Shown here one piece after another: positions 30,997-47,117 of a stretch of DNA of 64,000 nucleotides. The notes beneath the pieces were generated by a model, which worked only from the letters and a program-made list of their open reading frames with translations, was not told where the DNA came from and ran no database searches. A program made the position numbers and the translations under genes. This DNA is from an uncultured Flavobacteriaceae bacterium. Its GTDB lineage: Bacteria; Bacteroidota; Bacteroidia; Flavobacteriales; Flavobacteriaceae. Position 1 is the first letter of the stretch. Every line of letters starts with the position of its first letter. Location: NCBI GenBank assembly GCA_947493175.1, contig CANLQD010000001.1:186001-250000 (forward strand), written 5' to 3'.

Positions 30997-31027
30997 TTTG
31001 TATATCGCAAATTTGAAATTATATTTG
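30997..31027 (+). promoter_or_regulatory. Full flavobacterial promoter for tRNA-Phe
   Basis: TTTG (30997-31000) is followed after exactly 19 bases by TATATTTG (31020-31027), a perfect match to the Bacteroidota -33/-7 promoter TTTG-N19-TAnnTTTG. Transcription would start near 31033, giving a leader of about 65 bases before the mature tRNA. Confidence 0.72.
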
Positions 31028-31097
31028 CAGCCCTTTAAAGCATCTATCGAAGATTTATTTCGATGGCAATTATGTTTTAAGGACGTAATGAAATACT

Positions 31098-31170
<73 letters not shown>

Positions 31171-31175
31171 CATTC

Positions 31176-31203
31176 AACCCTGACGATGCCGTCGGGGTTT
31201 TTT
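31176..31203 (+). terminator. Intrinsic terminator after tRNA-Phe
   Basis: CCCTGACG (31178-31185) pairs with CGTCGGGG (31190-31197) over 8 bp with a 4-base loop and one T-G pair, followed by six T (31198-31203). Two further A-T pairs extend the base of the stem. Confidence 0.85.
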
Positions 31204-31215
31204 GTTGATCGGGAC

Positions 31216-31476
31216 ATACACTTTCTATATATCATCCAAAGCAAGAAAATCGACCGATACTATGTCGGTATGACACCCGAACCGATTTACTGCCGGTAAT
31301 AACTCAATTCCCACTATTTCAAAAAAGGATGTATCAAAAGTACCGATTATTTGGGCCATCGTACTGCCAAAAAATGTTGCACCATGCGAGGGGTCGGGTA
31401 TTTAGAATGATTTATCAAACCTATGCGAAACCGGAAATTCATCGAGAAGTCCATCGATGATCTCGTTACCCTCTAA
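31216..31476 (+). pseudogene. Relic of a GIY-YIG endonuclease-domain gene
   Basis: One continuous reading frame of 87 codons reads like a small GIY-YIG protein: HFLYIIQSKKIDRYYVGMTP (the GIY..YVG core), then NSHYFKKG, then FIKPMRNRKFIEKSIDDL, the usual C-terminal helix. It is interrupted by in-frame stops TAA-TAA at 31297-31302 and TGA at 31408, and no start codon precedes it. No frameshift is needed to follow it. Small GIY-YIG proteins are common single-gene insertions next to tRNA genes in this group. It lies 12 bases after the tRNA-Phe terminator. Confidence 0.72.
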
Positions 31477-31594
31477 GACCCATCACCCAAAAGATAAACA
31501 ATGTCTAAGGTTCCCCTTATGCGTGGGGTTGTAAGTACTACAAAACAACCGTCTTGAATCTACAAAGCGATTTTTTGCACTTTCTTCACCTTAT

Positions 31595-32299
31595 TTACCT
31601 CAACATCAGCCATTCGCCTTCTTCAATTTTTTCAGTTAGAAGTGCTTTATGAGCTTTATCGATTACAAATAGTTTGGTTTCAATTACATTCTGTTGTTCG
31701 GCTTCATCCTGCTCCGAACCAAAAAAGTCGACGATAATAGCATTTGAAGTTGTCACCACCACCCTGTCGTCTAGCGACCACGAATACATGGTCTGCTTAT
31801 TGTAGAAGGCATCTTTTTCAATCATCGGCTTCCCATACTTACCCGTTAGATATTGTAAAAGATCTTTATACTCCGAAACTGCCACTTGACCATCTTCTTC
31901 ACCAATCACAAAGGCAGAAGCGAGCAGGGCCATCAAATTGCCTTCGGAGCTTTTTAGCATTTCTACCTTGTCAAAATACTTGTTCCCATAATACCCGAGG
32001 CTATCACCTTCAGCCGAAGACGGCATTTTGTATTCAATGGCCAGTAGTTTTTGTTCGTTGTTGTCATCATCATAAATGGTATCCAATACCACCTCATGGA
32101 AACCACCCCACTTTTGCAAAAGCGCTGCCTGGTTTTCCTGTTCCTTTTTAAAGGTAACCGCTTTATATATTTCATCAGCATAGAAACCATCGACATTGAA
32201 ATCGAGACTTATATTTTCCAAATCCAATTGATCCATCCCTACCTTTGGCGTTTTACAAGAAACCATTGAGATCAACAAAAGAATTATTACTTTTTTCAT
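31595..32299 (-). CDS. Lipoprotein of unknown function
   Basis: 234 aa with a lipoprotein signal peptide (LLLISMVSCKTPK, Cys16). The mature part is acidic, mixed alpha/beta in appearance, without repeats or recognisable catalytic motifs. No family recognised. Flanking regions carry no linked gene: the GIY-YIG relic lies on one side and a 627-base gap on the other. Codon use looks like that of its neighbours. Confidence 0.8.
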   Translation of the reverse strand: MKKVIILLLISMVSCKTPKVGMDQLDLENISLDFNVDGFYADEIYKAVTFKKEQENQAALLQKWGGFHEVVLDTIYDDDNNEQKLLAIEYKMPSSAEGDSLGYYGNKYFDKVEMLKSSEGNLMALLASAFVIGEEDGQVAVSEYKDLLQYLTGKYGKPMIEKDAFYNKQTMYSWSLDDRVVVTTSNAIIVDFFGSEQDEAEQQNVIETKLFVIDKAHKALLTEKIEEGEWLMLR

Positions 32300-32926
32300 A
32301 GTGAAGTTTTATCATTTTTATTTTGGTGTACCCTTTTTTCGACTTTAAAAATTCCAGCTAATAAAATTTTCAAAACCTTGAACAAAACCTACTACATGAA
32401 GGTTTTGTAGGGTCGAAGTCAATTGTTCAACATTAGCCCGTTTTCTATACACCTAACGCTATTAAAGAAAAGGTATTGTAATATTTACTCCTAGCAGCTT
32501 TACTGGATTGGGCCGCAGATGAAGTTAACCTACCAAAAGACCAATTCCCGTCAACACTAGAAACCAACGGATACTAAAACTTTAAAAAGCAACAAATCCA
32601 GTTCAAATACCGCTTTTTTGGGATAACCATACTAGGTTATCCCGTTAAGCCTTCATCTTTTACGATTTAACGATACTTTTTTATGCGTAACACCCAAATT
32701 TTCAATTTTGTACCAAAGAACACCCTATGAAAATGTTATTACTACATTTAAAAAAGGAACTAACTGGAGAAAACAAATTGGCATTGGTTACCTGTTTGGT
32801 CATTTCAATCACCATATTTTTCATTCTAAAAGTACTTACTCGACAGGTACCCTTATAAAGACCATCCTTCGCGAAGCATATGTGCGGCAAGTTGATTAAC
32901 TTTAAAATCGACAAAATTGCCTTTTT
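32300..32926. other. Intergenic region with two perfect hairpins
   Basis: 627 bases between divergent genes. Two perfect inverted repeats are seen: ACAAAACCT (32382-32390) with AGGTTTTGT (32400-32408), loop 9; and GGGATAACC (32620-32628) with GGTTATCCC (32635-32643), loop 6. Neither is followed by a T-run on its outward side, so they are not typical terminators. Short open frames here (for example 32708-32899) lack family or codon support. Confidence 0.55.
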
Positions 32927-33373
32927 ATGCTATTGACCGTTCTCCAGAGCCTCTTTAAACGGGACCTCGACAAATTGGCCTCAGAAATCGACGCCTATGC
33001 CTCCGAACAACAGTTGTGGGTAGTTGACGGCCAGATTCCCAACTCGGGCGGCACACTTTGCCTGCACCTTATAGGAAACTTGAACGCCTTCATTGGCGCA
33101 GAATTGGGCAACACAGGTTATATTCGACAAAGGGAGCTCGAATTCTCTTTAAAAAATGTCCCAAAGGCCGACCTTCTAAAACAAATAAAAGCGACGCAGC
33201 AGATGGTAGCGCACACCCTTGGAAAAATACCGGAAGATACCTTGGATAAAGAATACCCCATAGTCGTTTTCAAAGAACCTATGACCACAGGATATTTTTT
33301 GACGCACCTCGCCACCCATCTTTCTTACCACCTTGGCCAGGTCAATTACCATCGGAGAATCTTGGGTTGTTAG
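32927..33373 (+). CDS. DinB-like four-helix protein
   Basis: 148 aa, all-helical in appearance, no signal peptide. The C-terminal TGYFLTHLATHLSYHLGQVNYHRR contains His residues spaced like the metal-binding HxxxH of DinB/YfiT proteins, and LHLIGNLNAFIG near residue 45 supplies the third His. The family includes bacillithiol S-transferases and many proteins without known activity, so the reaction is undetermined. It is followed after 114 bases by the phosphotransferase gene, which has its own -7-like element. Confidence 0.78.
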   Translation: MLLTVLQSLFKRDLDKLASEIDAYASEQQLWVVDGQIPNSGGTLCLHLIGNLNAFIGAELGNTGYIRQRELEFSLKNVPKADLLKQIKATQQMVAHTLGKIPEDTLDKEYPIVVFKEPMTTGYFLTHLATHLSYHLGQVNYHRRILGC

Positions 33374-33487
33374 TTGAAAGCTGTGAAAAAAACCACTCTG
33401 GATCGCCAGTAGAAAATCATGGAAGATTAGGATTATCGGAATCTCAGAGATCGTTATCTTCGTACCTCAATCCTATAAATACATTCC

Positions 33488-34459
33488 GTGGTTTTTTTTG
33501 ATATTCATAGTCAGATCAATGAGCTTCAAGATTACTTGACCAACAAAAGTTGGCTGCTTCCGGAGGAACAGATCGACACCATTACAAAACCGGGTGATGG
33601 CAATATGAACGTGGTTTTGCGCGTGCAAACCAACCAACGCTCTTTTATTCTAAAACAATCACGACCGTTCGTTCAAAAATACCAAGAAATCGAAGCCCCT
33701 TTAGATCGTATCGCCGTGGAACATCAGTTTTACACCACTATTCAAAACGATGCAATCGCGCAACACCTCCCCGCTATTTTGAATTATTCCTCCGAAGATT
33801 ATCTGATGATGCTGCAAGACCTGGGACACTGCGAAGACATGACCTACACCTATGATCAACGGTCTATTTCTAACACGGCGATCGAAATCTTGGTCAAGGT
33901 ATTGGCGGCCATACACCAAACCAAGGCACCAATAGGTTTTCCTACAAATCTAGCATTGCGCAAGCTCAACCATCAGCATATCTTCGTGCTTCCTTTTCTA
34001 GAGGACAATGGTTTTCAATTAGATGATATCCAAAAAGGATTGCAACAACTTTCCCTACCCTATAAAAAAGACTCAGTTCTTGCAGGGAAAGTTACCGAAG
34101 TAGGCAACAACTATTTATCTAACGGCTCCGTACTGCTACATGGGGACTACTATCCCGGTAGTTGGATGACCGAACGAGACCAGCTTTATGTCATTGACCC
34201 CGAGTTCAGTTTTATGGGATTTGCCGAATTCGATTTGGGTGTCATGATAGCGCATGCCGTAATGGCCTCAATGAATAAAAGCCCTATTGACCTTGTTTTT
34301 GAAAAGTATCCCCTTACCATTGATCAAACACTCACAAAACAGGTTGCCGGCATTGAAATAATGCGACGTCTTATTGGTCTTGCCCAACTACCACTAAAGC
34401 GAACCCTCGAAGAAAAACACTATCTTTTGAGGCTGGCCCATAAAATGATCCTACCATGA
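33488..34459 (+). CDS. APH-family phosphotransferase, methylthioribose-kinase-like
   Basis: 323 aa from a GTG start. The protein-kinase-like fold is indicated by DGNMNVVLRV (nucleotide-binding strand), SFILKQSRP (Lys), the catalytic HGDYYPGSW (HGD with Ser in place of the usual Asn) and the metal-binding VIDPEFSFMGFAEFDLG. The HGDxxxGS and DPEFxFxGxxxFDxG forms are those seen in methylthioribose kinases, so a small sugar or nucleoside-derived substrate is likely; the exact one cannot be read from sequence. TATCTTCG at 33455-33462 is a one-mismatch -7 element. Its stop overlaps the next ATG (ATGA). Confidence 0.8.
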   Translation: MVFFDIHSQINELQDYLTNKSWLLPEEQIDTITKPGDGNMNVVLRVQTNQRSFILKQSRPFVQKYQEIEAPLDRIAVEHQFYTTIQNDAIAQHLPAILNYSSEDYLMMLQDLGHCEDMTYTYDQRSISNTAIEILVKVLAAIHQTKAPIGFPTNLALRKLNHQHIFVLPFLEDNGFQLDDIQKGLQQLSLPYKKDSVLAGKVTEVGNNYLSNGSVLLHGDYYPGSWMTERDQLYVIDPEFSFMGFAEFDLGVMIAHAVMASMNKSPIDLVFEKYPLTIDQTLTKQVAGIEIMRRLIGLAQLPLKRTLEEKHYLLRLAHKMILP

Positions 34460-35763
34460 GAATCCTTTCCTTTGTTGGAGTTCTTATTGTCTTCTTCGGT
34501 ACCGCGTGCAAAAGACCGAAATCGAAAGTAGACCTTCCGTCTCCTAAAAAAATAGCATATGCCAGTGACTCCCTACAACTTTCCAAAGCAGCTTATTATG
34601 ACAAAGTGCTAGGGGCATTGGTCGGGTCTGCTATTGGCGATGCCATGGGTGCTTCGACAGAAATGTGGCACCGAAAACAGATTCAGCTAAAATATGGATA
34701 TATCACTGGGCTCACCCCCGCGGTACGACCTCAATCGCCCGAAGGTACTTGGGACCACAACCTTATAGCCGGCGCTACCACCGATGACACGCGTTGGAAG
34801 TATCTAATGGTCAAATATTTCAGCGAAAACCAAGAGGCCCTGAACGCACAAAATTTTGCCCAATTTATCAGCGACCATTATCAGACAGTCATAAAATCCT
34901 TGGCCGAACCAGTTGTACTGAATGACACGGGAGAACTGGATACTCGAATCGAAAAAATAGAATGGATCAAAGAATGGGCGCGGGTTACCCTTGCCTATCA
35001 AAAGAGTCATACAGCCTATCAACAAGCCTTGAATCGATTTTATGGCGGTGAAATGTCCTGTGCCGGGCAGTTGTACACTCCTATGTTCGGCCTGTTGGCC
35101 CCTACCCCGGACGCTGCCTATGCGATGGGCTATGAACACGCCTTGTTCGATTTGGGGTACGCAAAGGATATTTCGGGCCTCGTTGCCGCTATGACACAGA
35201 TGGCCATGCGGACCACTAATATAGACTCTATTTTAAACACTGCTACATTTGTAGACCCCAATGGCTATCAAGATAGCCGTTTGGTAGGTCGCATCCCCTT
35301 TTCTATTGCGGATGCTTCCATAAAAAGCGTTCTTTCGGTTAGGGACATGGTGTTGGTCGACTCCCTTTTGGCAAAAGACTCCCTTGTCTTTAAAATGCCC
35401 GAAAAATATCCTGAAAGGTATCAAGAATGGGTACGGCAAGAAATGGTGAACCAATTTTTGGAAAAAGACAAAAGGGCCATCGCTTTTCATGCGGGGGAAA
35501 TTTGGCAGATTTTGATTACCGCGCTACAGTTTGGCGAGGGCGATTTTCAGAAAACCATGCAATTCATAGTAAATTATGGGCGTGACAACGACACTGTTGC
35601 CGCCATTGCGGGAATGATCTTAGGAGCCAAAGAAGGGTATGCAAAACTTCCGACAGAAATAAAGCAAGAAATCCTCAAAGTTAATAAAGAACTATTGGGC
35701 ATCGATTTAGAGGGGTTGGCGACCGAAATGGTCGCCAACCGATATCAAGGAGTAATTCAATAA
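34456..35763 (+). CDS. ADP-ribosylglycohydrolase-family lipoprotein
   Basis: 435 aa. Signal peptide with lipobox-like FFGTACKRPK (Cys17) predicts an envelope-anchored protein, unlike the cytoplasmic ARH enzymes. The family metal-binding motifs are visible: GALVGSAIGDAMGASTE, GATTDDTRWKYLM and YGRDNDTVAAIAGMILGA. The family removes ADP-ribose or cleaves related N-glycosidic bonds. The start overlaps the stop of the kinase-like gene as ATGA, so the two are translationally coupled. A GC-rich 11-bp hairpin lies in the last 50 bases of the gene (35714-35740). Confidence 0.87.
   Translation: MRILSFVGVLIVFFGTACKRPKSKVDLPSPKKIAYASDSLQLSKAAYYDKVLGALVGSAIGDAMGASTEMWHRKQIQLKYGYITGLTPAVRPQSPEGTWDHNLIAGATTDDTRWKYLMVKYFSENQEALNAQNFAQFISDHYQTVIKSLAEPVVLNDTGELDTRIEKIEWIKEWARVTLAYQKSHTAYQQALNRFYGGEMSCAGQLYTPMFGLLAPTPDAAYAMGYEHALFDLGYAKDISGLVAAMTQMAMRTTNIDSILNTATFVDPNGYQDSRLVGRIPFSIADASIKSVLSVRDMVLVDSLLAKDSLVFKMPEKYPERYQEWVRQEMVNQFLEKDKRAIAFHAGEIWQILITALQFGEGDFQKTMQFIVNYGRDNDTVAAIAGMILGAKEGYAKLPTEIKQEILKVNKELLGIDLEGLATEMVANRYQGVIQ
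35714..35740. repeat. Perfect 11-bp hairpin inside the end of the ADP-ribosylglycohydrolase gene
   Basis: GGTTGGCGACC (35714-35724) pairs with GGTCGCCAACC (35730-35740) around GAAAT. It sits 23 bases before the stop, next to a convergent gene only 15 bases away. No T-run follows on either strand, so terminator activity is uncertain. Confidence 0.5.
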
Positions 35764-35778
35764 AAGCTCCAAATACTT

Positions 35779-37179
35779 TTACTCTACAGTCATAAGCCAC
35801 GGATCTTTAAAATTTCGATCTAGCTTATGGGCCCGCAGCCTCTTGATCGCTTCTTGCTTATCGGTATCGGTATCCACAATCAAGTAGTACCGACTGTTCG
35901 TTCCTTTTTTACCAATAATGGTATAATATTCCTGTTCTTTGAACTTGGTTTGTGCTTTTTCTGCCTCTGCAAGAGAAGCAAAACTTCCAATAACTACGTA
36001 GTAACCTGTTTTCAGCAATTTGCTCTTGGCATCTACGGTACGATCAATGGTTCTAACGCGTGGTTTTTCAGGCGCTTTCTGTGAGGCCACCTGCAAGGTT
36101 GGCTTTTTGGGCTGTTCCTTTTCCGTTTTGGGAGCAGGTTTTTCAACCGGTTCCTTTATGACTTCGCTCGTTTTGGTATCGGCGACAACCGCTGGTTCTT
36201 TTTTCTTCTCGGCACGCTTCTTCGTTTTCTTCTTTTTAGTCGGCGTTAGATCGGCTATTTTCTTAGAGGTTTCCTCTGCGTTCTTTTGCCACTCCGGACC
36301 ATCCTCACCGGCTCGTTTTTTAAATCGATACGAAAGACTTAAAGCATGTACATCGTCAAATAAATCATCTATCGAAGTTTCATAGGAATACCCAATGTTC
36401 AATGCATCGAGGAGATACACTTGTATGGCCGGATTGATGCTATATTCATTTTTATAAGAAACACTGGCAGACAACCAATTTTTAACATCTAGGCGCAACA
36501 CTCCCTCATAAATCGGGTCGTCCAAATAACTGAGATACCTGAAAATCGGTGTTAATCGAAAGTTTTGTGCTACCTGAATCTTATATTGCACATAGCCTGT
36601 GTAACCTTCCGCTACGTCATAAAACAGTGCTTCCGGGTCGCTTGTTCGAACGATCTCCTGTATGGGCATTCTATTGTAGAAACCGCCGAGTGTAAAGTTG
36701 TTACGATTATAATGGAGGCCCCCACGAAAGGTAAAAGAACGATTGGCCATATTAATATTCGGTACGAAATCTACATCTGTGGGCAATTGTCCTACGGGAA
36801 TACGTTCCTGTTGCCGTGTTTCTACCCCTCCTGAAAAACCCAGTTTCACATATTGCTGACGGGACCCCAGATCAAATCGAATCGAAGCGCCCAGCATGGC
36901 GGAAGAGTATGAAAAAAAATCAAAACGATCCCTAAAATAATCAACTCCAAAAGCGATATTATCATAAATCGGCATCTGTGCTAAGATGTATTGAGACGTT
37001 TGCTTGCGTTCGGCATCCGAAACCTGAAGCATTCCGGTTAATTCAACTCGATCATTTAGACCTAAGGCCGAAGGGTCGTTGAAATAGGGATACAATTGTT
37101 CTTGTCCGGGAAATACAATACGTTGTGATAACAAAGAACCACAGCAAAACAGCGCAATCAATACTAAAGTAGGTTTCAT
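35779..37179 (-). CDS. PorP/SprF-like membrane protein with C-terminal SPOR domain
   Basis: 466 aa from ATG 37179, which begins a signal peptide (MKPTLVLIALFCCGSLLSQ). Residues about 25-300 resemble the PorP/SprF barrel linked to type IX secretion (YPYFNDPSALGLNDRVELTG, GVDYFRDRFDF, ALSLSYRFKKR). A Lys/Glu/Pro-rich linker of about 85 residues follows. The last 75 residues are a SPOR domain (TGYYVVIGSFASLAEAEKAQ ... YYLIVDTDTDKQEAIKRL). SPOR domains bind glycan strands lacking stem peptides. It follows the DUF1501 gene closely (gap about 33 bases). Confidence 0.83.
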   Translation of the reverse strand: MKPTLVLIALFCCGSLLSQRIVFPGQEQLYPYFNDPSALGLNDRVELTGMLQVSDAERKQTSQYILAQMPIYDNIAFGVDYFRDRFDFFSYSSAMLGASIRFDLGSRQQYVKLGFSGGVETRQQERIPVGQLPTDVDFVPNINMANRSFTFRGGLHYNRNNFTLGGFYNRMPIQEIVRTSDPEALFYDVAEGYTGYVQYKIQVAQNFRLTPIFRYLSYLDDPIYEGVLRLDVKNWLSASVSYKNEYSINPAIQVYLLDALNIGYSYETSIDDLFDDVHALSLSYRFKKRAGEDGPEWQKNAEETSKKIADLTPTKKKKTKKRAEKKKEPAVVADTKTSEVIKEPVEKPAPKTEKEQPKKPTLQVASQKAPEKPRVRTIDRTVDAKSKLLKTGYYVVIGSFASLAEAEKAQTKFKEQEYYTIIGKKGTNSRYYLIVDTDTDKQEAIKRLRAHKLDRNFKDPWLMTVE

Positions 37180-37212
37180 GGTGTGTAGGGTTAAGGTCGG
37201 TAGGGGCAAAAG

Positions 37213-38892
37213 CTATTCGATCAAAATCATCTTGCTCGAAGCGCCTTCATAATTTGTAAACCTATAAAGATATTGTCCACTTGAGAGCGACTCCATATTC
37301 ATGACGTCGGAAAAGTGAAGTACGTATTCCCCTTCGGCGATATAACCGCTCTGAAGTGTTGCCATCTTTTGGCCCAGCAAGTTGTAAAGCGTGATTTCGA
37401 GATGCATTGATTCGAATGCGTTGTACGCAATGGAAATACCTTTGTCCGCATCGTAAAAAGGTCTGTGGGAAAATGTTTCGGGATCGAGCAGCTCTTCCGC
37501 CACGACCCCGGTATCTGGATTTTCCTCGGAATCGACCGGATCTTCGGAATCGCCGGTACCTTCCTCATTTGTTCCACATGAAAACCCTAAATCGAGATTT
37601 TCAAAATCTCCGCTTAAAGAGTTTTGCACCTCATTGGTATCCAAGCACAACCACTGAGAAAGCACGGTCGCATACAATTGTCTAAAGTCGGTATTGTACT
37701 TTAAATTCTTGTTGTTATCCAAATCGGATAAATCGGGGTGGTCCCCAATAAATCCGTTTCCTTCAAGACCAGGTCCGAATAATAGAGTATTGGACGAAGC
37801 GCCATGGTCCGTTCCATCGGATCCATTTTCAAAAACCCTTCTACCAAACTCCGAAATGGTCATTCCCAACACGTTCTGATCGTGTCCGCTTTGTTTCAAA
37901 TCCTTATAGAATTCAGATACCGCAGACGATAGTTCACTCATTAATAAAGAATGCCGTTCTATTTGGTCGGCATGGGTATCAAAGCCTCCCAAGGTTACCA
38001 TATACACTTTGGTCCCAAGATTCCCTTTGATCAGTCTGGCAATGATAGATAGCTGTCTGGCAATGTCACTATCTTCGTATGTAGCATTTGTGGTAGAACT
38101 TTTATAAGCCTCATTGATTACGCCCGAATAAAGATAGGTCGTATTACTGGTTGCCCTTAAAAATTCTTGTTGTACTCCCAGTTTACAACTTGTATCCAAG
38201 TCTTCCAAACCAAATTGAACGCCAGATTTGGCGATGTTCTCCAACTGATTCGGATTTGACACCTGAAACGCATACTGTTCGTCCTCTTTCGTAAAAATGA
38301 GGTTCCCAATACTGCCAATCTGCACTGCAAGCGGTTTTTCGGGAGGATTAAAGAGGTAATCGGGATTGGTAGTGCTAAAATGACGCCCGAAAAAGCCTTG
38401 GTTGTAAATCGTGTTGATACCACTCGCCGCCCATATATCGGAAGAGGTAAAGTGCGAAAGGCTTTGATCTTCATACCCTACGCCATTTACCACTTTCATC
38501 ATACCTTCTCCCCATAAGGTTTCCAAAGGTTGCATATAATTAGGTATTGCGAAATCGTCGCTAAGTTTGATCAAAGAGTTCTGCCTGTGGTAAATAGAAG
38601 GTCGATAATTGGCATAGGTATCGAAATCGTATAAGGGAACAATCGTATTTAAACCATCATTACCCCCAGCCAAACGAATTAATACCAGGATATGATCTCC
38701 TTCGGATTCATTCAGGGCCATTCCTATGGGAGATATGGAAGAAGCACTCAAGGCACTTCCGCCTAGGAGCATTGTACCGGCACTACCCATTCCGAGTGCC
38801 TTCATAAAGGATCGTCGGGTCCATTGTTCGTGCTCTTCGTCATGTGCAGGGCTATCCGCGCTATGATATCGGTTTAATATATTGGAGTACAT
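37213..38892 (-). CDS. DUF1501 protein with Tat signal and T9SS sorting domain
   Basis: 559 aa. A twin-arginine motif (TRRSFMKALGMGSAG, about residue 26) precedes the DUF1501 body (VLIRLAGGNDGLNTIVPLYD, MTISEFGRRVFENGSDGTDH). The last about 80 residues look like a type A type IX sorting domain (ITLYNLLGQKMATLQSG ... SGQYLYRF). Thus the protein would cross the inner membrane by Tat and the outer membrane by T9SS. DUF1501 proteins are sulfatase-fold-like and of unknown function. It lies 7 bases after the DUF1800 gene, its usual partner. Confidence 0.9.
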   Translation of the reverse strand: MYSNILNRYHSADSPAHDEEHEQWTRRSFMKALGMGSAGTMLLGGSALSASSISPIGMALNESEGDHILVLIRLAGGNDGLNTIVPLYDFDTYANYRPSIYHRQNSLIKLSDDFAIPNYMQPLETLWGEGMMKVVNGVGYEDQSLSHFTSSDIWAASGINTIYNQGFFGRHFSTTNPDYLFNPPEKPLAVQIGSIGNLIFTKEDEQYAFQVSNPNQLENIAKSGVQFGLEDLDTSCKLGVQQEFLRATSNTTYLYSGVINEAYKSSTTNATYEDSDIARQLSIIARLIKGNLGTKVYMVTLGGFDTHADQIERHSLLMSELSSAVSEFYKDLKQSGHDQNVLGMTISEFGRRVFENGSDGTDHGASSNTLLFGPGLEGNGFIGDHPDLSDLDNNKNLKYNTDFRQLYATVLSQWLCLDTNEVQNSLSGDFENLDLGFSCGTNEEGTGDSEDPVDSEENPDTGVVAEELLDPETFSHRPFYDADKGISIAYNAFESMHLEITLYNLLGQKMATLQSGYIAEGEYVLHFSDVMNMESLSSGQYLYRFTNYEGASSKMILIE

Positions 38893-38899
38893 AGGTTGT

Positions 38900-40345
38900 T
38901 TATTTAAGTTGAAATTCGGGAAGTTTTACAATATGTCGGAGCAATAAATAGACTTGCTGGGGTACGCTATCCAAATACAAGTTCCAGGTACCATCTTCGT
39001 AGTAGTTTTCAGGAACGGCATCCGATTTGAAAACCACCAGCGCAATGTCATAATCGTCTTGAGTCAGCCCTGCTTCGGGCAAAAGCCAATCCATGATTGC
39101 TTTGGTGACATAAACGACGTCATCGCTTTCGTCGGCACAGGCCCGCGCAAAATCACGAAAATCCTCTTCATTTGCTTGGAAGGCGTCTCTAACGAGTCGA
39201 TCCATGTATTGCCACCTAAAAACCATGGTAGCTGAACTGATCCATTCCTTATCGCGTTGCCAGCCCGCCACATTCGGGGGCGAGAATACCCATTGGCCCA
39301 TTTGCTTGGACCAAAGGCGTATTCTTGATATACTGTCTTCACTCTGGTCGAGGTTGATGCCAGTATCTTTATAAAAAGCCAGTAAAAGGTCCGTAGGGCT
39401 TTTGATAATAACATCCATTGCCTGGGCGTCGAAGAAATGTTGACTCTTGAACAGTTGCCGCAGCACGGGGGCTATTTCAAAATCATTGGTTTCAAACGTA
39501 TTGGCAAGTTGATTGATGATGGTATCGTTCGGTAAATCGGGATGTACAAAATAAGTATAGATCTTACCAACGATAAACTTTGCAATCAAACTTCTTTTTT
39601 CTTCGAACAAAATCTGGATGACATCATCGTACCCCCAATTTCCGGTCCTTCCAAAAATCGTTTTCTCGCCATCATCGTAAAATTGCTCTGTAAATTCGAA
39701 AGGGGCGCAGGAATCGGGCCTTCTATTGTAGCCCGTTAAAGCCCGCGCGGTTTCTTCAATATCTTGTTGGGTGTATCCGTTCCCTTCACCTAGGGTGAAC
39801 AGCTCGTATAGCTCACGGGCGTAATTTTCATTGGGTTCCCTATTGGTATTTTGATGCCCGTTCAAATACCGTAGCATCGCAGGGGTAAGCCCCACCTCAT
39901 CGACCAACTCCTTGAAATTCCCCAATGCATGACGCTGTAAAAGATTGGTATACGCATACAGATAAGCGGGACACTGGTTAAAGGAAGGAACATCGACCAC
40001 TACGTGATTGCTCCAAAAGAAGGCCATTCGCTCACGCAAACCATCATTATAGAGTCCGCGCACAAAAACATGCTGCCAACGACGAAGCAGCGTACTATCC
40101 AGGTCTTTAGGGCCAGAACTGTTAAGTTGTTCAGGAAGCGGATCGGTAAGAGCAAGATTTACCGCAGCATCAACCAAAGTATCTACCAAAGCAGACGGAC
40201 TCTGTGATAAAGCTTGATCAATATCGGAAGGTTTAATACCATATCCCAATCTTCTGTACAGATGACGCACTTTCTTATCATCCCAAGTATTGGTTCCGGA
40301 AGGAACATACGCGTTCAATGACGCGTTAATACAATTTACGCTCAT
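38900..40345 (-). CDS. DUF1800 protein
   Basis: 481 aa. Typical DUF1800 blocks are KVRHLYRRLGYGIKPSDID, RMAFFWSNHVVVD, YARELYELFTLGEGNGYTQQDIEE and PPNVAGWQRDKEW. No N-terminal signal peptide is evident, in contrast to its partner. DUF1800 and DUF1501 genes occur together across Bacteroidota and Planctomycetota; neither has an established activity. It is the first gene of a DUF1800-DUF1501-PorP/SprF-SPOR run. Confidence 0.88.
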   Translation of the reverse strand: MSVNCINASLNAYVPSGTNTWDDKKVRHLYRRLGYGIKPSDIDQALSQSPSALVDTLVDAAVNLALTDPLPEQLNSSGPKDLDSTLLRRWQHVFVRGLYNDGLRERMAFFWSNHVVVDVPSFNQCPAYLYAYTNLLQRHALGNFKELVDEVGLTPAMLRYLNGHQNTNREPNENYARELYELFTLGEGNGYTQQDIEETARALTGYNRRPDSCAPFEFTEQFYDDGEKTIFGRTGNWGYDDVIQILFEEKRSLIAKFIVGKIYTYFVHPDLPNDTIINQLANTFETNDFEIAPVLRQLFKSQHFFDAQAMDVIIKSPTDLLLAFYKDTGINLDQSEDSISRIRLWSKQMGQWVFSPPNVAGWQRDKEWISSATMVFRWQYMDRLVRDAFQANEEDFRDFARACADESDDVVYVTKAIMDWLLPEAGLTQDDYDIALVVFKSDAVPENYYEDGTWNLYLDSVPQQVYLLLRHIVKLPEFQLK

Positions 40346-40712
40346 AAGTAGGTTAGTGTTTAGAAACTTTTTAAACGGGTAATTTGTAAGTCTACATCGA
40401 AAACTAAATATTTGGGGTAATATTTTATTTTTTCGATGAACTACGGGTTATCGGCCTTATGAAACCAATATTGCAGTTTAAAATAAGTTTTTTCTTACAT
40501 TTTTGTTCCAACAACTCTTGAAATACAAAAACGACTCACTATCCTGACAATAATTGGTAGAAATTAAAACTTTACAAATACCTCTCTTACCTACGTGAAA
40601 AAACTAAAAAAAGATTACTTCAGCTCCAATTTCACACAAATTGAATAATGAATCCGTTAAAAAACCAAGGAATCAGTAGTTTTTACAAGAAAAAACTGTG
40701 TACCCTTATCGA
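40346..40712. other. Intergenic region, promoter side of the DUF1800 run
   Basis: 367 AT-rich bases between the start of DUF1800 and the end of the GH32 gene, both on the minus strand. On the minus strand TAGTTTTC, one mismatch from TAnnTTTG, lies about 70 bases before the DUF1800 start. No gene, terminator hairpin or repeat is apparent. Confidence 0.45.
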
Positions 40713-42314
40713 CTACCATATTCGTTTCAACGGGTTGATATTCAGGTTTTCGATAGTTATAGGTATTGCAGAAGCATTTTCGAACTCTAAAGAAGTATAT
40801 GGTTTTGTTGGAAACAATTGGGCGGTCATAACGTACTGCCCCTTGTTGATAAAGACTTCTATAGAAGATCGGTCTATCAGGATTCGAACCTCATACGCAT
40901 CTTCTGGCAAATTCGTTATGGGCATCTGTTGTATTTTGTTGGCAAAACTTTCATCGAAATCGGTGACTCCAGAAACTATACGATCGAGAAGGAAGAGTCT
41001 TTGGTCACTGTTCATGGTCAATACCGTTTCCTCCCCTTTGTCGTTCATAAACGTTAATGCGAAATCCTTGGAAGCGGTCGTAAACCTTATTTCGGCCTGA
41101 TTCAAGTTTTCCGAGGCAATCCGTTCGGATCCGTTTCCAACGATTTGAAACTCCTTTGCCGTCGTTTCGACACGAAGGCTGTCGAAACTTGCGACCGGAT
41201 AGCTATAGAGAATATAGGTATCGTCTTCTTTATATAAAGACAGTTTCCGAGGAATGGTCATCGCACTTCGCCACATTTTGGTGGGAGTTTCTTGGGCATA
41301 GGCCCAGTTGCTCATCCAACCGATAAAAATACGATCCTGTCCAGGGTTGTTGTCATAGGTATCACCATAATAGTTTTGAGGAAGCGTGTGATACGTGACC
41401 CCGGCGTAGTTATCAGTGCCCCAATCAATCCATTTCACCGCTGTCTGATCAGTTGTAAAACGTTCCCCATCAAAATCCCCGACAAAATATTGCGTACCAC
41501 TACCCCCATTCGGTGCCCCTGGGTTGATACTGATCAAGAGCACCCATTTTTCTTCATCGGTACCTTCAACCTTTAATTTAAACAGGTCGGGACATTCCCA
41601 TACGCCACCATGAGCGCCCCGCTTTTTTCCAAACTCACTCAGCTTTGTCCATGATTTGAGATTGTTTGAACCCCATAACTGCAGATGATCTCCTGCGACG
41701 AGACTCATCACCCAAGCCTGGTTATGATCGTCCCAGAACACCTTTGGGTCTCTAAAATCCTTGACGCCAACATTTTCAATGACCGGGTTTTCTTTATAAG
41801 GTGTCCAAGTATCGCCATTGTCCAAACTATAGGCGATGCCTTGTGTCTGAAAGTCTTTTTCACCCGACTTCTCTCCCTCGGGATCGTGATAGGTAAAAAT
41901 GGCGACCAAAGGCGGGTCTTCGATACTACCCAAACCGGAGGTATTGCCTATATCCAAAACAACACTTCCTGAAAATATATAACCATTTTTATCAGGGTAC
42001 AAAGCAATCGGTTTGTGCTCCCAGTGCATAAGGTCTTTGCTAATGGCATGGCCCCAATGCATGGGCCCCCACTTAATATCTTCGGGGTAAAACTGGTAGA
42101 ACAAATGGTAAATCCCCTTGTGATAGACCATTCCGTTAGGATCGTTCATCCAATACCGCGGAGGAGAAAAATGAAATTGGGGCCTGTAAGTTTCGGTATA
42201 GGTTGCCGACTCTATCTCCTGTGTAATCGACTTGGACGAATCTTTCTTTTCTTTACAGGAATTTAAAGAAATGAGGATGCATGCCGTAAAAAGCATTTTT
42301 TTTAGTCTGGGCAT
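40713..42314 (-). CDS. Glycoside hydrolase family 32 lipoprotein (fructan/sucrose hydrolase type)
   Basis: 533 aa. Lipobox SLNSC (Cys20). The GH32 five-bladed propeller shows all three acidic motifs: nucleophile Asp58 in WMNDPNG, transition-state stabiliser in DFRDPKVFW, and acid/base Glu in GVWECPDLF. A C-terminal beta-sandwich (about 390-533) includes IDRSSIEVFIN. It hydrolyses beta-fructosidic bonds in levan, inulin or sucrose; specificity cannot be told. No SusC/SusD pair or fructokinase is adjacent, so it is not part of a visible utilisation locus. Confidence 0.93.
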   Translation of the reverse strand: MPRLKKMLFTACILISLNSCKEKKDSSKSITQEIESATYTETYRPQFHFSPPRYWMNDPNGMVYHKGIYHLFYQFYPEDIKWGPMHWGHAISKDLMHWEHKPIALYPDKNGYIFSGSVVLDIGNTSGLGSIEDPPLVAIFTYHDPEGEKSGEKDFQTQGIAYSLDNGDTWTPYKENPVIENVGVKDFRDPKVFWDDHNQAWVMSLVAGDHLQLWGSNNLKSWTKLSEFGKKRGAHGGVWECPDLFKLKVEGTDEEKWVLLISINPGAPNGGSGTQYFVGDFDGERFTTDQTAVKWIDWGTDNYAGVTYHTLPQNYYGDTYDNNPGQDRIFIGWMSNWAYAQETPTKMWRSAMTIPRKLSLYKEDDTYILYSYPVASFDSLRVETTAKEFQIVGNGSERIASENLNQAEIRFTTASKDFALTFMNDKGEETVLTMNSDQRLFLLDRIVSGVTDFDESFANKIQQMPITNLPEDAYEVRILIDRSSIEVFINKGQYVMTAQLFPTKPYTSLEFENASAIPITIENLNINPLKRIW

Positions 42315-42401
42315 ATGATAAATTTTATCGCCTACACTTGTTTCCGGTAAGCTCCAGGACCCCTAAAATAGTATCTTTACTCCAGTTTTAAATTAATTTG
42401 A

Positions 42402-42899
42402 ATGCAATTTGCACATTTTTTGTTTATTCTTTTCATAGGCGTCGGCTCCCTTATGGGACAGGAACCCATTGATAAGGCCCTTGAAAAATGGAACGTTGGA
42501 AGCGTGCCATATATTTATGTGGATGAAATCGGCGAATTGACAAATTTTATTTTGCTCGATACAAGAGCAAAAGAAGAATATGATGTAAGTCGTTTAAAAG
42601 ATGCCATTTGGGTGGGTTATGATACTTTTCAGGCAGATTCGGTAACGACACTTATTCCCGATAAAGAGACCCCTATCTTAGTATACTGTAGCATTGGGGT
42701 ACGTTCTGAAGATATTGGGGAAAGATTACTAAAGCTAGGCTATATCGATGTTAAAAACCTATATGGCGGCATATTCGAATGGAAGAATCAGGGAAAAACC
42801 GTGGTAGACGAACAAGGTAATGCGACCAAAAAGGTACATGCATTCGATAAAGAATGGGGTAAACTGCTTAAAAAAGGAAAAAAGGTGTACAAACGGTAA
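42402..42899 (+). CDS. Secreted rhodanese-like sulfurtransferase
   Basis: 165 aa. Signal peptide (about 1-19). Single rhodanese domain with LLDTRAKEEYDVSRLKDA and the active loop Cys96 in YCSIGVRSEDIG. It would act in the periplasm, transferring sulfur from a persulfide. It sits 5' of the arsenosugar-type genes on the same strand with a 122-base gap that holds another promoter. Rhodaneses occur in such clusters, but a role there is not proven. TATCTTTA, near-consensus, lies at 42372-42379. Confidence 0.87.
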   Translation: MQFAHFLFILFIGVGSLMGQEPIDKALEKWNVGSVPYIYVDEIGELTNFILLDTRAKEEYDVSRLKDAIWVGYDTFQADSVTTLIPDKETPILVYCSIGVRSEDIGERLLKLGYIDVKNLYGGIFEWKNQGKTVVDEQGNATKKVHAFDKEWGKLLKKGKKVYKR

Positions 42900-42967
42900 C
42901 GGCAAGGAATAATACGTTAATTGAGTAAGATTGCCCGATATTTTATGAGAAACCGTGGTATTTTATT

Positions 42968-42995: not shown

Positions 42996-43021
42996 ACTTT
43001 TGAATTTATTAAACAAATGGT

Positions 43022-43693
43022 TTGGGCATTATAAATCCCTTTAAAAAGGAAACGGACAAGAAAACGGTACATTTTCAATTGGCAAGTACAAGGAACCTCT
43101 TATTGATCTTTACCCGTAACCCGGAATTGGGAAAGGGAAAAAGAAGACTTGCCGCCACGATTGGAGATGAAGCTGCTTTGAACATCTACCGTTTTCTGCT
43201 ACAACATACGGTGTCGGTCACAGAAAATCTTGCTTTTGATAAACGGGTTTACTATTCTGAAAAAATAGGGAATAGCGATATCTGGAAAGAAGATTTTTAT
43301 ACGAAAAAGCTACAACAGGGCCAAGATTTAGGCATTCGCATGGCCAATGCTTTCTTGGAAGGTTTTGCAGACGGATTTGAAAAAATATGCATCATCGGAA
43401 GCGATTTGTACGACTTGGAACAAACCGATATCGAAAATGCTTTTCTTGCTTTGAACGACCATGACTTTGTAGTGGGGCCTGCGGCAGATGGCGGCTACTA
43501 CTTATTGGGAATGAAAATATGGAAACCATCCCTTTTCGAGAAAAAAACATGGGGAACCGATACTGTTTTAGCTGCTACCCTTACTGATTTAAAAAAGGAA
43601 AAAGTACATTTGCTACCCACAAAAAATGATGTGGATACCTATGAAGATATTAAGGATGTAGCGGCATTCCATCCTTTTATAAAACACCTTTAG
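43022..43693 (+). CDS. TIGR04282-type transferase (arsenosugar biosynthesis)
   Basis: 223 aa from a TTG start; the ATG at 43017 is out of frame and stops after five codons. Sugar-nucleotidyltransferase/glycosyltransferase-like fold: LLIFTRNPELGKGKRRLA at the N-terminus, IIGSDLYDLEQTDIENAF with the metal-binding Asp, and VGPAADGGYYLLGM. This is the DUF2064/TIGR04282 family, named for its occurrence in arsenosugar gene clusters. PNP starts 1 base after its stop, so the two are coupled. No signal peptide. Confidence 0.87.
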   Translation: MGIINPFKKETDKKTVHFQLASTRNLLLIFTRNPELGKGKRRLAATIGDEAALNIYRFLLQHTVSVTENLAFDKRVYYSEKIGNSDIWKEDFYTKKLQQGQDLGIRMANAFLEGFADGFEKICIIGSDLYDLEQTDIENAFLALNDHDFVVGPAADGGYYLLGMKIWKPSLFEKKTWGTDTVLAATLTDLKKEKVHLLPTKNDVDTYEDIKDVAAFHPFIKHL

Positions 43694-43694: not shown

Positions 43695-44510
43695 ATGACA
43701 AAAAAACAATTGGAAGAATCAGTCGCCTACTTAAAGAACAAGGGATTTGACCAACCCGAAATCGGAATCGTTTTAGGAACCGGGTTGGGGCAATTGGTAC
43801 ATGAGATTGAAAATCCGATCGAGGCACATTACAACCATATTCCGTTCTTTCCGCTAGCGACCGTAGAATTTCATACTGGAAAACTGATCTATGGCACCAT
43901 TGAGGGTAAGAAAGTAGTCGTAATGCAAGGACGGTTTCATCTTTACGAAGGGTACGATTTTTTGGATGTGACCTATCCCATTCGAGTAATGCACCAACTG
44001 GGTATTCAAAAATTGTTTATTTCGAATGCGGCAGGAGCTATCAACCTTCAATTTAAAAAAGGAGACATTATGCTGATCGAAGACCATATCAACCTGCAAG
44101 GAGGTTCACCACTTGCGTTTAGGAATGTCGCTGAGTTTGGTGACCGTTTTGCCGATATGAGCGCACCCTATGATCAAGAGATGTGTGATAAACTAGTCGC
44201 CATAGCGAAGCGAGAACGTATTTCAATGAAACAAGGTGTATATGTTTCAGTTGTTGGTCCTCAGCTAGAAACCAAGGCCGAATATCGTATGCTCAACATA
44301 TTAGGGGCCGATGCGGTGGGTATGAGTACGGTGCCCGAAGTAATTGTTGCCAATCATTTACGACTACCTATTGTAGCCGTCTCGGTCTTGACCGATGAAT
44401 GCGACCCCGATCATCTGGAACCGGTGAACATACAGGAGATTATCGAAATAGCGGGCAAAACAGAACCTAAAATGATACGGCTTTTTAAGGAACTGATCAA
44501 GGAAATTTGA
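43695..44510 (+). CDS. Purine nucleoside phosphorylase (trimeric type)
   Basis: 271 aa. Full set of family motifs: GIVLGTGLGQLVHEI (phosphate loop), VVMQGRFHLYEGY, NAAGAINLQFKKGDIMLI, VGPQLETKAEYRML and VGMSTVPEVIVANHL. It cleaves purine nucleosides with phosphate to base and ribose-1-phosphate. In an arsenosugar cluster it could release adenine from an adenosyl-derived arsenical intermediate; that role is inferred from neighbours. It may also serve general purine salvage. The heptamer array follows its stop after 14 bases. Confidence 0.92.
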   Translation: MTKKQLEESVAYLKNKGFDQPEIGIVLGTGLGQLVHEIENPIEAHYNHIPFFPLATVEFHTGKLIYGTIEGKKVVVMQGRFHLYEGYDFLDVTYPIRVMHQLGIQKLFISNAAGAINLQFKKGDIMLIEDHINLQGGSPLAFRNVAEFGDRFADMSAPYDQEMCDKLVAIAKRERISMKQGVYVSVVGPQLETKAEYRMLNILGADAVGMSTVPEVIVANHLRLPIVAVSVLTDECDPDHLEPVNIQEIIEIAGKTEPKMIRLFKELIKEI

Positions 44511-44670: not shown

Positions 44671-45636
44671 ATGAGCTATTTAGAAGCAACCAACGATTTA
44701 TATAAAGATGCGGCTTTGACACCTGATGTCGGACTTTGCTGTACAACCAACCCCATTTGGCAATTTCCAGGTCTTTCGATTCCGAAAATAATGCAAGAGA
44801 TGAATTATGGTTGTGGAAGTACTGTTTCCGCACAAGATTTGATCAATGACCCCAAAATCTTATACGTTGGAGTGGGCGGAGGTATGGAATTACTGCAATT
44901 CGCTTATTTCTCTCGTCAGAAAGGAGGTGTGACCGGTGTAGATGTCGTAGACGAAATGCTAACCGCTTCCCAAGAAAACTTTAAAATAGCAGAGCAGGAA
45001 AATGACTGGTTCAAAAGCGAATTTGTGAATTTGGTCAAAGGGGACGCCCTGAACCTTCCCGTAGAAGATGAAAGTATCGATATTGCAGCACAGAATTGCC
45101 TGTTCAACATTTTTAAGTTAGAGGATCTGAAAAAGGCGGTTGCAGAAATGTATCGGGTGTTAAAGCCGCACGGTCGTTTGGTCATGAGCGACCCAACCTG
45201 TGAACAACCCATGAACGATACCCTTCGGAACGATGATCGTCTAAGGGCGCTATGTCTCAGCGGAAGCATCCCGATCGAGGATTACGTAAAAGTATTGACC
45301 GATGCCGGTTTTGGAACTATCGAGATCCGCGCCAGAAAATCATATCGGGTATTATCGCCCAACCACTACCCGACCGATGAGCTGATCTTCATCGAGTCGA
45401 TCGAAATAGCGGCTATCAAAGACCCGATGCCGAAAGACGGTCCTTGTATCTTTACCGGAAAGACCGCTATTTATTATGGGAACGAAGACTATTTCGACGA
45501 CCAAAAAGGGCATGTGCTCCTACAAAATCAGCCTTTGGCCGTCTGCGATAAGACCGCAGCTGCTCTGGCAAAGGCCAGCAATGAAATACACATCAGCGAA
45601 AGTACTTGGCATTATAATGGCGGGGGGTGTTGTTAA
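44671..45636 (+). CDS. arsM: ArsM-like SAM-dependent methyltransferase (arsenosugar type)
   Basis: 321 aa. The Rossmann SAM-binding site is ILYVGVGGGMELLQFAY, and AAQNCLFNIFKLEDLKKA and EMYRVLKPHGRLVMSDPTC follow the class I pattern. Cys residues typical of arsenic-binding ArsM occur at GLCCTTNP (about 22-23), NYGCGS (about 48), DPTCEQ and the end GGGCC. It would methylate arsenite toward dimethylarsenic. In Bacteroidota clusters this form works with a radical-SAM enzyme (ArsS), which is not seen in this window. Confidence 0.9.
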   Translation: MSYLEATNDLYKDAALTPDVGLCCTTNPIWQFPGLSIPKIMQEMNYGCGSTVSAQDLINDPKILYVGVGGGMELLQFAYFSRQKGGVTGVDVVDEMLTASQENFKIAEQENDWFKSEFVNLVKGDALNLPVEDESIDIAAQNCLFNIFKLEDLKKAVAEMYRVLKPHGRLVMSDPTCEQPMNDTLRNDDRLRALCLSGSIPIEDYVKVLTDAGFGTIEIRARKSYRVLSPNHYPTDELIFIESIEIAAIKDPMPKDGPCIFTGKTAIYYGNEDYFDDQKGHVLLQNQPLAVCDKTAAALAKASNEIHISESTWHYNGGGCC

Positions 45637-45700: not shown

Positions 45701-46426
45701 ATGCCATATATACTTTTGTTCTCCCTATTTATAGGCTGTTCGGGTCCTATAGTTATCGAAAGCGACCAAACCGTCACTACGGTCGACCATGCCGCATGGG
45801 ACACGCTGCTACAAAAACACGTAGATGCAGAAGGGAATGTCGACTACAAGGGTTTCACAAAAGACAGGACCGCATTGGCAGATTACCTTAAGGTCTTGGG
45901 GCAATTCCCGATTGCCGATGATGCGGATAAAAATGAACGATTGGCCTATTACATTAATCTGTACAACGCCGGCACCATTCAATTGATTTTGGAGAATTAT
46001 CCGCTCACAAGCATCAAGGACATTTCAAGACCTTGGGGAAAGAATATCATCCCTATTGGCGACAACATGTACTCCCTGGGAGCGATTGAACATAAGATCT
46101 TACGAAAAATGAACGAGCCTCGAATTCATTTTGCCATCAATTGCGCTTCCTATTCCTGCCCGAAATTATTGAATGAGGCCTATACCGCTAACAAGATAGA
46201 TGCACAGCTAGAACAGACAACCAAGAATTTCATCAATGATCCCAAACGAAATACCATTGAAACGGATAAGGTAACCCTGTCGAAAATCTTCAATTGGTTC
46301 AAAAAAGACTTTACTAAAAACGGTTCGCTACTGGAATATGTAGACCGTTATGCGAAAACAACAATCGATAAGAACGCAAAAATCAACTATCGAAACTATG
46401 ATTGGAGCCTAAATGAAATCAAGTAG
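45701..46426 (+). CDS. DUF547 lipoprotein in the arsenosugar-type cluster
   Basis: 241 aa. Short signal with lipobox FIGCSGP (Cys13). The DUF547 core shows AYYINLYNAGTIQLILENYP, HFAINCASYSCPKLLNEAY and the C-terminal INYRNYDWSLNEI. The fold is related to transglutaminase/papain-like proteins, but no activity is known. It overlaps the following glycosyltransferase by 14 bases. A paralogue lies at 62161-62880. Confidence 0.87.
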   Translation: MPYILLFSLFIGCSGPIVIESDQTVTTVDHAAWDTLLQKHVDAEGNVDYKGFTKDRTALADYLKVLGQFPIADDADKNERLAYYINLYNAGTIQLILENYPLTSIKDISRPWGKNIIPIGDNMYSLGAIEHKILRKMNEPRIHFAINCASYSCPKLLNEAYTANKIDAQLEQTTKNFINDPKRNTIETDKVTLSKIFNWFKKDFTKNGSLLEYVDRYAKTTIDKNAKINYRNYDWSLNEIK

Positions 46427-47117
46427 TCCAAAAATAAGTATCATCATTCCTGTCTTGAACGAGGAAACCTGTATCGGAAATACGCTCAAATACCTTTGGA
46501 AAAACAGCAATGGAGATTACCTGCACGAAATATTGGTAGTAGATGGTGGTAGCAGCGACCGAACGGTCGAAATTGCCAAAAAAGAAGGAGCCAAGGTGAT
46601 TACCACATCTAAGGGAAGGGCCAAACAGTTGAATGCCGGGGCCAGAAATGCGCAGGGGGATATTCTCTATTTTTTACACGTCGACACCTTACCTCCCAAA
46701 AATTTTGACCAAAGCGTTGTTCGTGCAGTTGCAAAGGGGGACCAAGCAGGCTGTTTTCAAATGAAATTTGATAGTGATAGTCGCTTTCTTGGTTTTTTTG
46801 CCTGGTTTACCAGAGTCAACATTAAACTATGTCGTGGTGGGGACCAATCGCTTTTTATTACCAAGGAACTTTTTAAACGCTCGAGAGGATTTAACGAACA
46901 ATATGTTGTATATGAAGACAACGAGTTTATAGGGAGGCTATATGAATTAGCCCCCTTCAGGATTTTGCCTCGACATGTAAAGACGTCTGCCAGAAGGTAT
47001 GAAGAACGTGGAGAGGTCGCCCTTCAATACCATTTTGGCATGATTCATCTCAAAAACTATTTAGGGGCCGGACCAGAACAACTCCTTGACTACTACAGGC
47101 GAAAGATTATTTCTTGA
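46413..47117 (+). CDS. TIGR04283-type glycosyltransferase (arsenosugar biosynthesis)
   Basis: 234 aa GT-A family 2 enzyme. It begins with SIIIPVLNEETCIGNTLKYL; VVDGGSSDRTVEIAKKEGAK and GRAKQLNAGARNAQGDIL follow, with the metal-binding HVDT. GGDQSLFITKELFKRSRGF is the acceptor-site region. TIGR04283 proteins are defined by their presence in arsenosugar clusters, where they probably add a glycosyl or glyceryl group. It overlaps DUF547 by 14 bases and closes the visible cluster. Confidence 0.88.
   Translation: MKSSSPKISIIIPVLNEETCIGNTLKYLWKNSNGDYLHEILVVDGGSSDRTVEIAKKEGAKVITTSKGRAKQLNAGARNAQGDILYFLHVDTLPPKNFDQSVVRAVAKGDQAGCFQMKFDSDSRFLGFFAWFTRVNIKLCRGGDQSLFITKELFKRSRGFNEQYVVYEDNEFIGRLYELAPFRILPRHVKTSARRYEERGEVALQYHFGMIHLKNYLGAGPEQLLDYYRRKIIS

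Follow-up and report, generated by a model that had tools for sequence, protein, structure and literature searches.

What might an MtnK-like kinase and a predicted lipid-anchored member of the ADP-ribosylglycohydrolase (ARH) superfamily do together when their genes overlap on one strand of a flavobacterial genome? The question is raised by positions 33,488 to 35,763 of a 64,000-nucleotide stretch from an uncultured Flavobacteriaceae bacterium (GenBank assembly GCA_947493175.1, contig CANLQD010000001.1, positions 186,001 to 250,000 of the forward strand), which as a whole is hereafter called the window. An earlier note on this DNA had described the two open reading frames (ORFs) as overlapping by ATGA, and the ORF coordinates confirm it:

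33488..34459, + strand: APH-superfamily kinase, MtnK-like (323 amino acids, GTG start; Pfam, profile and fold matches)
34456..35763, + strand: ARH-superfamily lipoprotein (435 amino acids, ATG start; PF03747, alignment and fold)
34456..34459, + strand: ATGA overlap shared by the ARH start and the kinase stop codon (ORF coordinates)

Our tentative answer, to which we give somewhat less than an even chance, is that the pair may form a hydrolase-kinase salvage unit that supplies ribose-1-phosphate, most likely 5-dimethylarsinoyl-ribose-1-phosphate, to the TIGR04282 and TIGR04283 proteins of arsenosugar metabolism, and that such scavenging can replace synthesis. This reading draws on comparison among genomes, in which four patterns are seen: the conserved pairing of the two genes, the exchange of ARH for nucleoside hydrolases beside the kinase, the correspondence between hydrolase export and the presence of an importer, and the retention of TIGR04282 and TIGR04283 in genomes that have the kinase but no ArsS.

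The pairing was followed in a single draw of 249 Flavobacteriaceae genomes, to which the family counts below refer. The kinase was found in 33 of them and ARH in 26, of which 23 gave strong ARH matches (best E 2.2e-111 or lower); the weak matches in G047, G095 and G248 (best E 8e-7 to 5e-4), all kinase-less, are taken as other ARH branches. The earlier note had named conservation among relatives as a check, and the pair passes it, with the kinase present in 23 of 23 strong-ARH genomes and the two genes side by side in 22. Where both genes are whole, they are same-strand neighbours in 21 of 21 neighbourhoods (the window counted), with a gap of -4 bp in 16 of the 21 under mechanical start choice, and in G037 the adjacent pair is truncated by a contig end. 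The exception is G129, where the usual PanK site has ARH without the kinase, which lies on a different contig in another operon. A kinase-negative call reflects a search with one protein, by which diverged kinases may be missed. Neighbourhood labels come from BLAST to our own labelled set and mechanical ORF calling, making starts and gaps approximate, and the cross-tables of kinase, ArsS, TIGR04283 and TIGR04282 were compiled by hand from printed tables.

The kinase matches the Pfam family APH (E 1.8e-12) and carries HGDYYPGS, in the HGDxxxGS form of 5-methylthioribose (MTR) kinases to which the earlier note had pointed. Its best solved relatives by sequence are MtnK (2olc, 3.8e-15) and the Arabidopsis MTR kinase (2pyw, 2.7e-13), and D220 of the HGD motif, D237 and E239 of DPE, and R293-R294 are invariant in 29 aligned kinase sequences. 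The predicted model made with these 29 sequences (predicted local distance difference test, pLDDT, 91.2) has the MtnK fold, matching the MTR kinases of Arabidopsis and Bacillus at Z 31.2-33.8 over 294-316 residues. Profile alignment to 2olc places D220 on MtnK 233 and R293-R294 on MtnK 340-341, with the Arg-pair stretch alone scoring 5.5 bits; the substrate-binding Asp and Arg pair of MtnK, which we take to be MTR-binding residues, are thus present by this alignment. By TIGR01767 score the protein falls outside MtnK itself (123.9 bits against a cut-off of 275; 323 amino acids against 401 model positions).

An antibiotic, choline or another alcohol as the kinase substrate would agree with the APH family match and with the two 4-hydroxytryptamine kinase entries that come next in the structure ranking (Z 28.5 and 21.8), but MTR kinases lead that ranking, LxmKY stands at Z about 23 and choline and aminoglycoside kinases at about 16-18, and the partner genes of the kinase encode ribosyl hydrolases; we consider such a substrate extremely improbable. 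Getting rid of 5-methylthioribose or 5-deoxyribose, which arise as by-products of S-adenosylmethionine (SAM) chemistry, as in methionine salvage or the dihydroxyacetone phosphate (DHAP) shunt, takes more from the closeness of MtnK in sequence and fold, and MtnK-family kinases act on 5-deoxyribose according to the accessible text of PMC6079011. However, the isomerase MtnA (TIGR00512) was found in 0 of the 249 genomes, including all 33 kinase genomes and the genome of the window, and the export signals on the hydrolases suggest an external substrate. The classical MTR-kinase pathway is therefore unlikely, given the MtnA result and a kinase score below the MtnK cut-off, and we set disposal of these by-products aside as improbable.

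The second protein matches PF03747 over the whole profile (128.2 bits; gathering cut-off 26.2), and its metal motifs TDDT (109-112) and GRDNDT (375-380), both unchanged across all 21 aligned sequences, place it in the ARH superfamily. Cys18, which follows a hydrophobic stretch, is likewise invariant in 21 of 21 homologues, and the N-terminus fits a predicted lipoprotein. The predicted model (pLDDT 80.5) reaches Z about 26-28 against MJ1187, ARH3, DraG and Tri1. This fold, the metal motifs and weak matches to the DraG and Tri1 models would suit a protein that strips ADP-ribose from other proteins (DraG-like) or guards against an ADP-ribosylating toxin (Tri1-like) and has nothing to do with the kinase. 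Those matches, however, reach 46.4 bits against 337 for DraG (TIGR02662) and 40.8 bits against 490 for Tri1 (NF041672), and both the unbroken association of this ARH branch with the kinase and its exchange for nucleoside hydrolases argue against such a role, which we regard as very improbable. Two further ARH-superfamily genes (L272, L273) occur elsewhere in the window's genome, and no kinase of the same family was labelled in the 19 kb surrounding either.

What takes the place of ARH beside the kinase is informative about its role. Ten family genomes have the kinase without a strong ARH, and in nine of them a nucleoside hydrolase lies beside the kinase. The partner hydrolases of L085, L093 and L095 belong to IU_nuc_hydro (these three proteins were scanned; the others were labelled by BLAST). 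The named kinase loci, the 80 best of 502 relatives, are biased towards close relatives, and several come from the same genomes as the G handles. Within a distance of four genes, 57 of them carry ARH and 26 a nucleoside hydrolase; 4 have both, and the single locus with neither has ARH five genes off. On a tree of 118 kinases (partner labels: ARH 65, nucleoside hydrolase 38, both 6, none 9), the labels are clustered, with 5 changes for nucleoside hydrolase and 13 for ARH, values as low being reached in 0 of 500 shuffles each. Because ribosyl hydrolases of two different families replace each other beside one kinase, the ARH of this branch is probably a ribosidase. The earlier proposal that ARH frees a ribose-like part for the kinase to trap is supported by this comparison, the alternative partner being a nucleoside hydrolase, whereas the substrate is something we infer.

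The same partner family also lends itself to plain nucleoside or ribose scavenging, in which the kinase would convert free ribose to ribose-1-phosphate that enters central metabolism or base salvage, and TIGR04282 and TIGR04283 would use ordinary ribose-1-phosphate. The kinase fold, which is that of MtnK, speaks against this alternative.

A destination for the proposed product is suggested by a set of genes that the earlier note had not linked to the pair. It begins 6.6 kb downstream of the pair's end and extends over 42402-47117:

42402..42899, + strand: arsenosugar-block protein with a rhodanese domain (NF045521, 198.9 bits, cut-off 145)
43022..43693, + strand: TIGR04282 CofC-like transferase (210.5 bits, cut-off 134)
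43695..44510, + strand: purine-nucleoside phosphorylase, PNP (NF006054, 342 bits, cut-off 218)
44671..45636, + strand: arsenosugar-type arsenite methyltransferase ArsM (NF038099, 568.8 bits, cut-off 400)
45701..46426, + strand: DUF547-like protein (BLAST to block homologues; no NCBIfam match)
46413..47117, + strand: TIGR04283 glycosyltransferase (231.9 bits, cut-off 182)

ArsM, TIGR04282 and TIGR04283 all score over their cut-offs in the window, by which we recognize an arsenosugar block, and ArsS of this organism lies elsewhere in the same genome. For the first steps of arsenosugar synthesis, the available text of PMC8552651 and PMC12159101 describes only ArsM and ArsS, acting together. The presence of the block in the same window changes the likely substrate of the pair. 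Since 5-dimethylarsinoyl-ribose, like 5-methylthioribose, is a 5-substituted ribose, an MtnK-like kinase would be a natural fit for it. The phosphorylase in the block belongs to the inosine/guanosine type, a point in favour of plain ribose scavenging.

A TIGR04282 gene lies at most nine genes off in 44 of the 48 named ARH loci that have at least six downstream genes (from the best 80 of 502). For kinase-less genomes, we selected 30 that are ArsS-positive; ArsM is over cut-off in 25, and 20 of these were read around ArsM, showing ArsS in the same stretch in 19. Fourteen genomes have kinase, ARH and ArsS, and in the 12 with a known place of ArsS it is separated from the kinase by more than 300 kb or placed on another contig.

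The genomes without ArsS bear most directly on whether scavenging can stand in for synthesis. With ArsS-positive defined as E below 1e-100, 184 of the 249 genomes are positive and 65 negative; G208, G234 and G238 were classed as negative by inference and included in the TIGR04282 search. Among the 65 ArsS-negative genomes, those with the kinase all have TIGR04282 over cut-off (14 of 14), versus 2 of 51 of those without it (p 2e-12), and TIGR04283 is present in 12 of 14 versus 1 of 51 (p 3e-10). When only genomes with completeness of 90% or more and contamination of no more than 5% are counted, TIGR04282 stands at 12/12 versus 2/35. In six of the 14, the kinase and TIGR04282 are on different contigs (G037 was left out of this set because a contig break probably cuts its locus), and TIGR04282 is kept in 6/6 and TIGR04283 in 4/6; close linkage is therefore not the explanation. 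None of these 14 genomes has an arsenosugar-type ArsM over cut-off (G104 gives a weak match of 89.8 bits), and in six of them ArsM is gone from an otherwise retained block (L064, L065, L071, L072, L073, L080), with DUF547 gone in three. In ArsS-positive genomes, TIGR04283 occurs in 18 of 19 with the kinase and 139 of 165 without it. The genetic link between the kinase and TIGR04282/TIGR04283 is well supported by these comparisons, uncorrected for ancestry. Plain ribose scavenging, taken alone, gives no reason for TIGR04282 and TIGR04283 to outlast ArsS mainly together with the kinase.

How the substrate might reach the enzymes is indicated by relatives. The earlier note had reported no transporter beside the pair, which is true in the window, but relatives encode SusCD/TonB receptors, and some an ABC (ATP-binding cassette) importer, with the hydrolase and kinase. 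In L204, L205 and L207 the row consists of an ABC importer, nucleoside hydrolase, kinase, SusC and SusD (four of the L205 proteins are named). Such sets of SusCD, hydrolase and kinase also recall the Bacteroides thetaiotaomicron ribokinase locus, in the accessible part of PMC10434189, which again favours plain ribose. Export signals were judged from hydropathy, with no signal-peptide program: the hydrolase has no hydrophobic N-terminus in 6 of 6 distinct loci with importer and nucleoside hydrolase (L094 being the same as L282), and has one in all 43 remaining rows whose N-terminus is intact (three genomes counted twice). Beside hydrolases, the ABC importer was thus seen only where these have no export signal, and the ARH of the window, with its hydrophobic N-terminus, belongs to the exported type. 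At importer loci, the riboside would enter whole, whereas at loci with an exported hydrolase the freed sugar would have to cross the inner membrane by some permease.

The importer binding protein was found in 6 of the 249 family genomes, of which five, including G199 and G242, are ArsS-negative and TIGR04282-positive. In G001 and G236, which belong to the same genus, a TIGR04282-like gene, SusC, SusD, the importer and an unexported hydrolase lie at a kinase-less site, and the kinase is with ARH elsewhere; G129 has the reverse arrangement. The second kinase locus of G225 combines DUF547, TIGR04283, a TIGR04282-like gene, SusCD and a hydrolase. Six uptake or kinase loci contained 0 Rfam elements at gathering thresholds. 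The divergent TIGR04282-like genes (L278, L281, L282, L280, L274, L276, L279, L095, L144, L208) mostly lie directly 5' of SusC/TonB genes; their products have no N-terminal GKxKTRL-type motif, and nearly all, L279 excepted, end in RGPP-, RAPP- or KGSP-like residues.

Beyond the family, 21 of the 395 genomes of a phylum-wide draw have the kinase at E 1e-10. In 16 distant neighbourhoods, a nucleoside hydrolase or ARH lies beside the kinase in 9 and an MTAP-like phosphorylase in 2. Diverged kinases of distant Bacteroidota (26% and 28% identity; L218, L219) stand in a row with ABC importer genes and an MTAP-like phosphorylase, for which MTAP is the best model (97 and 107 bits, under the cut-off of 275). 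The importer is homologous to the type in L204, L205 and L207 (in L219, 52% for the binding protein and 42% for the permease; in L218, 34% for the permease). As a hint, the diverged kinase, importer and phosphorylase could constitute a possible uptake route for 5'-modified nucleosides. These MTAP-like neighbours are a further point against plain ribose as the substrate, and overall we judge plain ribose scavenging to be unlikely, if still deserving serious attention.

In the salvage reading that we prefer, the lipid-anchored ARH (in relatives, the nucleoside hydrolase) would cleave a ribosidic bond to release a ribofuranose, and the MtnK-like kinase would phosphorylate this sugar at the anomeric oxygen (C1) to give a ribose-1-phosphate. 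Phosphorolysis by the block's nucleoside phosphorylase would lead to the same type of product, and both sources would feed TIGR04282, a CofC-like protein possibly acting in sugar activation, and TIGR04283, acting in glycosyl transfer. The likeliest sugar would be 5-deoxy-5-dimethylarsinoyl-ribose, derived from arsenosugars or arseno-nucleosides, so that an arsenosugar precursor may be scavenged in addition to, or in place of, synthesis by ArsM and ArsS. What we infer in this scheme is the activity of each enzyme, phosphorylation at the anomeric position, the functions given to TIGR04282 and TIGR04283, the arsenic substrate and the inner-membrane crossing in the window's organism. As ArsM and ArsS are both present in the window's genome, synthesis and scavenging are both possible there. 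A wider version, which we put forward with clearly less assurance, is that marine Bacteroidota may share an arsenosugar salvage route comprising uptake by SusCD/TonB and in some cases ABC systems, cleavage by ARH or nucleoside hydrolase, phosphorylation at C1 and re-use through TIGR04282/TIGR04283, with lineages devoid of ArsM and ArsS living on scavenged arsenosugar.

Several observations weigh against this salvage reading. Simple co-occurrence of the kinase with arsenosugar synthesis was tested and rejected, ArsS being rarer among kinase genomes (19/33 versus 165/216, p 0.03), and all genome counts treat genomes as independent despite their shared ancestry. Some genomes that lack the kinase likewise have the block by PanK (L252, L262; near PanK in L250); because it adjoins PanK in these few genomes, adjacency alone is weak evidence of function, its value as proof is weakened, and the position of the pair beside the block may be inherited. 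One of the ten genomes with the kinase but no strong ARH, G189, has no adjacent nucleoside hydrolase either, and 5 of the 16 distant loci have neither hydrolase nor phosphorylase at the kinase. A search of the window's own genome for the importer binding protein, and for that protein only, did not find it, and the TIGR04282-like proteins of the uptake operons are divergent, fall below the cut-off and have no N-terminal part of the profile. Moreover, G199 and G242 are kinase-less and ArsS-negative, yet keep TIGR04282. In both, TIGR04282 lies with PNP and the importer is elsewhere, behind a TonB receptor; phosphorolysis would here yield a sugar phosphate without a kinase. The corresponding loci L274 and L276 of these two kinase-less exceptions each have, 3' of the ABC importer, a gene that its cysteine motif marks as radical-SAM-like.

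Around the pair itself, the one Rfam element in 31000-48000 of the window is a tRNA. A scan for sigma-70 promoters, which does not cover Bacteroidota promoters, found 5 versus 5.2 expected, and 1 terminator was found versus 3.7 expected. Directly 5' of the kinase lies a DUF1572/DinB-like gene (32927-33373), which occupies the same place in several relatives (e.g., L064, L065, L077), and a lipoprotein-like ORF of 234 amino acids at 31595-32299 has no Pfam match at 1e-3. On the 3' side, 35779-40345 contains a PorP/SprF-SPOR gene, a DUF1501 gene and a minus-strand gene of 481 amino acids, followed by a GH32 gene and the arsenosugar block; judged by gene sizes, L102, L103 and L111 resemble this arrangement.

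The gene set tracks the late arsenosugar genes where the early ones have been lost, and thereby offers candidates for uptake, cleavage and activation. It opens a test of what use an arsenic sugar is to the cell: if the proposal is true, this sugar would be wanted by the cell and more than an end product of detoxification. It also leads us to propose that the members of one ARH-superfamily branch act as ribosidases. Among the matches listed in our literature search (titles and abstract openings, with most subscription journals outside its coverage), no publication dealt with arsenosugar salvage genes, and "arsenosugar" and "Flavobacteriaceae" together gave no match.

Compared with known systems, the kinase shares with MtnK (TIGR01767; 2olc, 2pyw) the fold, the HGD and DPE motifs and the Arg pair at MtnK 340-341, but is shorter, scores below the cut-off, comes from a family in which MtnA was found in 0 of 249 genomes and is partnered by a ribosyl hydrolase with an export signal. 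The hydrolase resembles MJ1187, DraG, ARH3 and Tri1 in its full-length PF03747 match, metal motifs and fold, and differs from them in its lipoprotein signal, its fixed partner kinase and scores below the cut-offs of both equivalog models that it matches. The locus BT2804 of B. thetaiotaomicron likewise brings together a ribokinase, a TonB receptor, SusD, a nucleoside hydrolase and a permease, as the accessible portion of PMC10434189 describes it, but its kinase is a ribokinase whereas that of the window is MtnK-like. The 5-deoxyribose salvage cluster, in what is available of PMC6079011, also employs an MtnK-family kinase on a 5-deoxy sugar; unlike the present system, it includes an isomerase of the TIGR00512 family, which was found in none of the 249 Flavobacteriaceae genomes. 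Finally, of the bacterial arsenosugar biosynthesis genes (ArsM, ArsS, TIGR04282, TIGR04283), the window's block has all but ArsS, which lies elsewhere in the genome, and the hydrolase and kinase would add to this pathway a proposed second entry.

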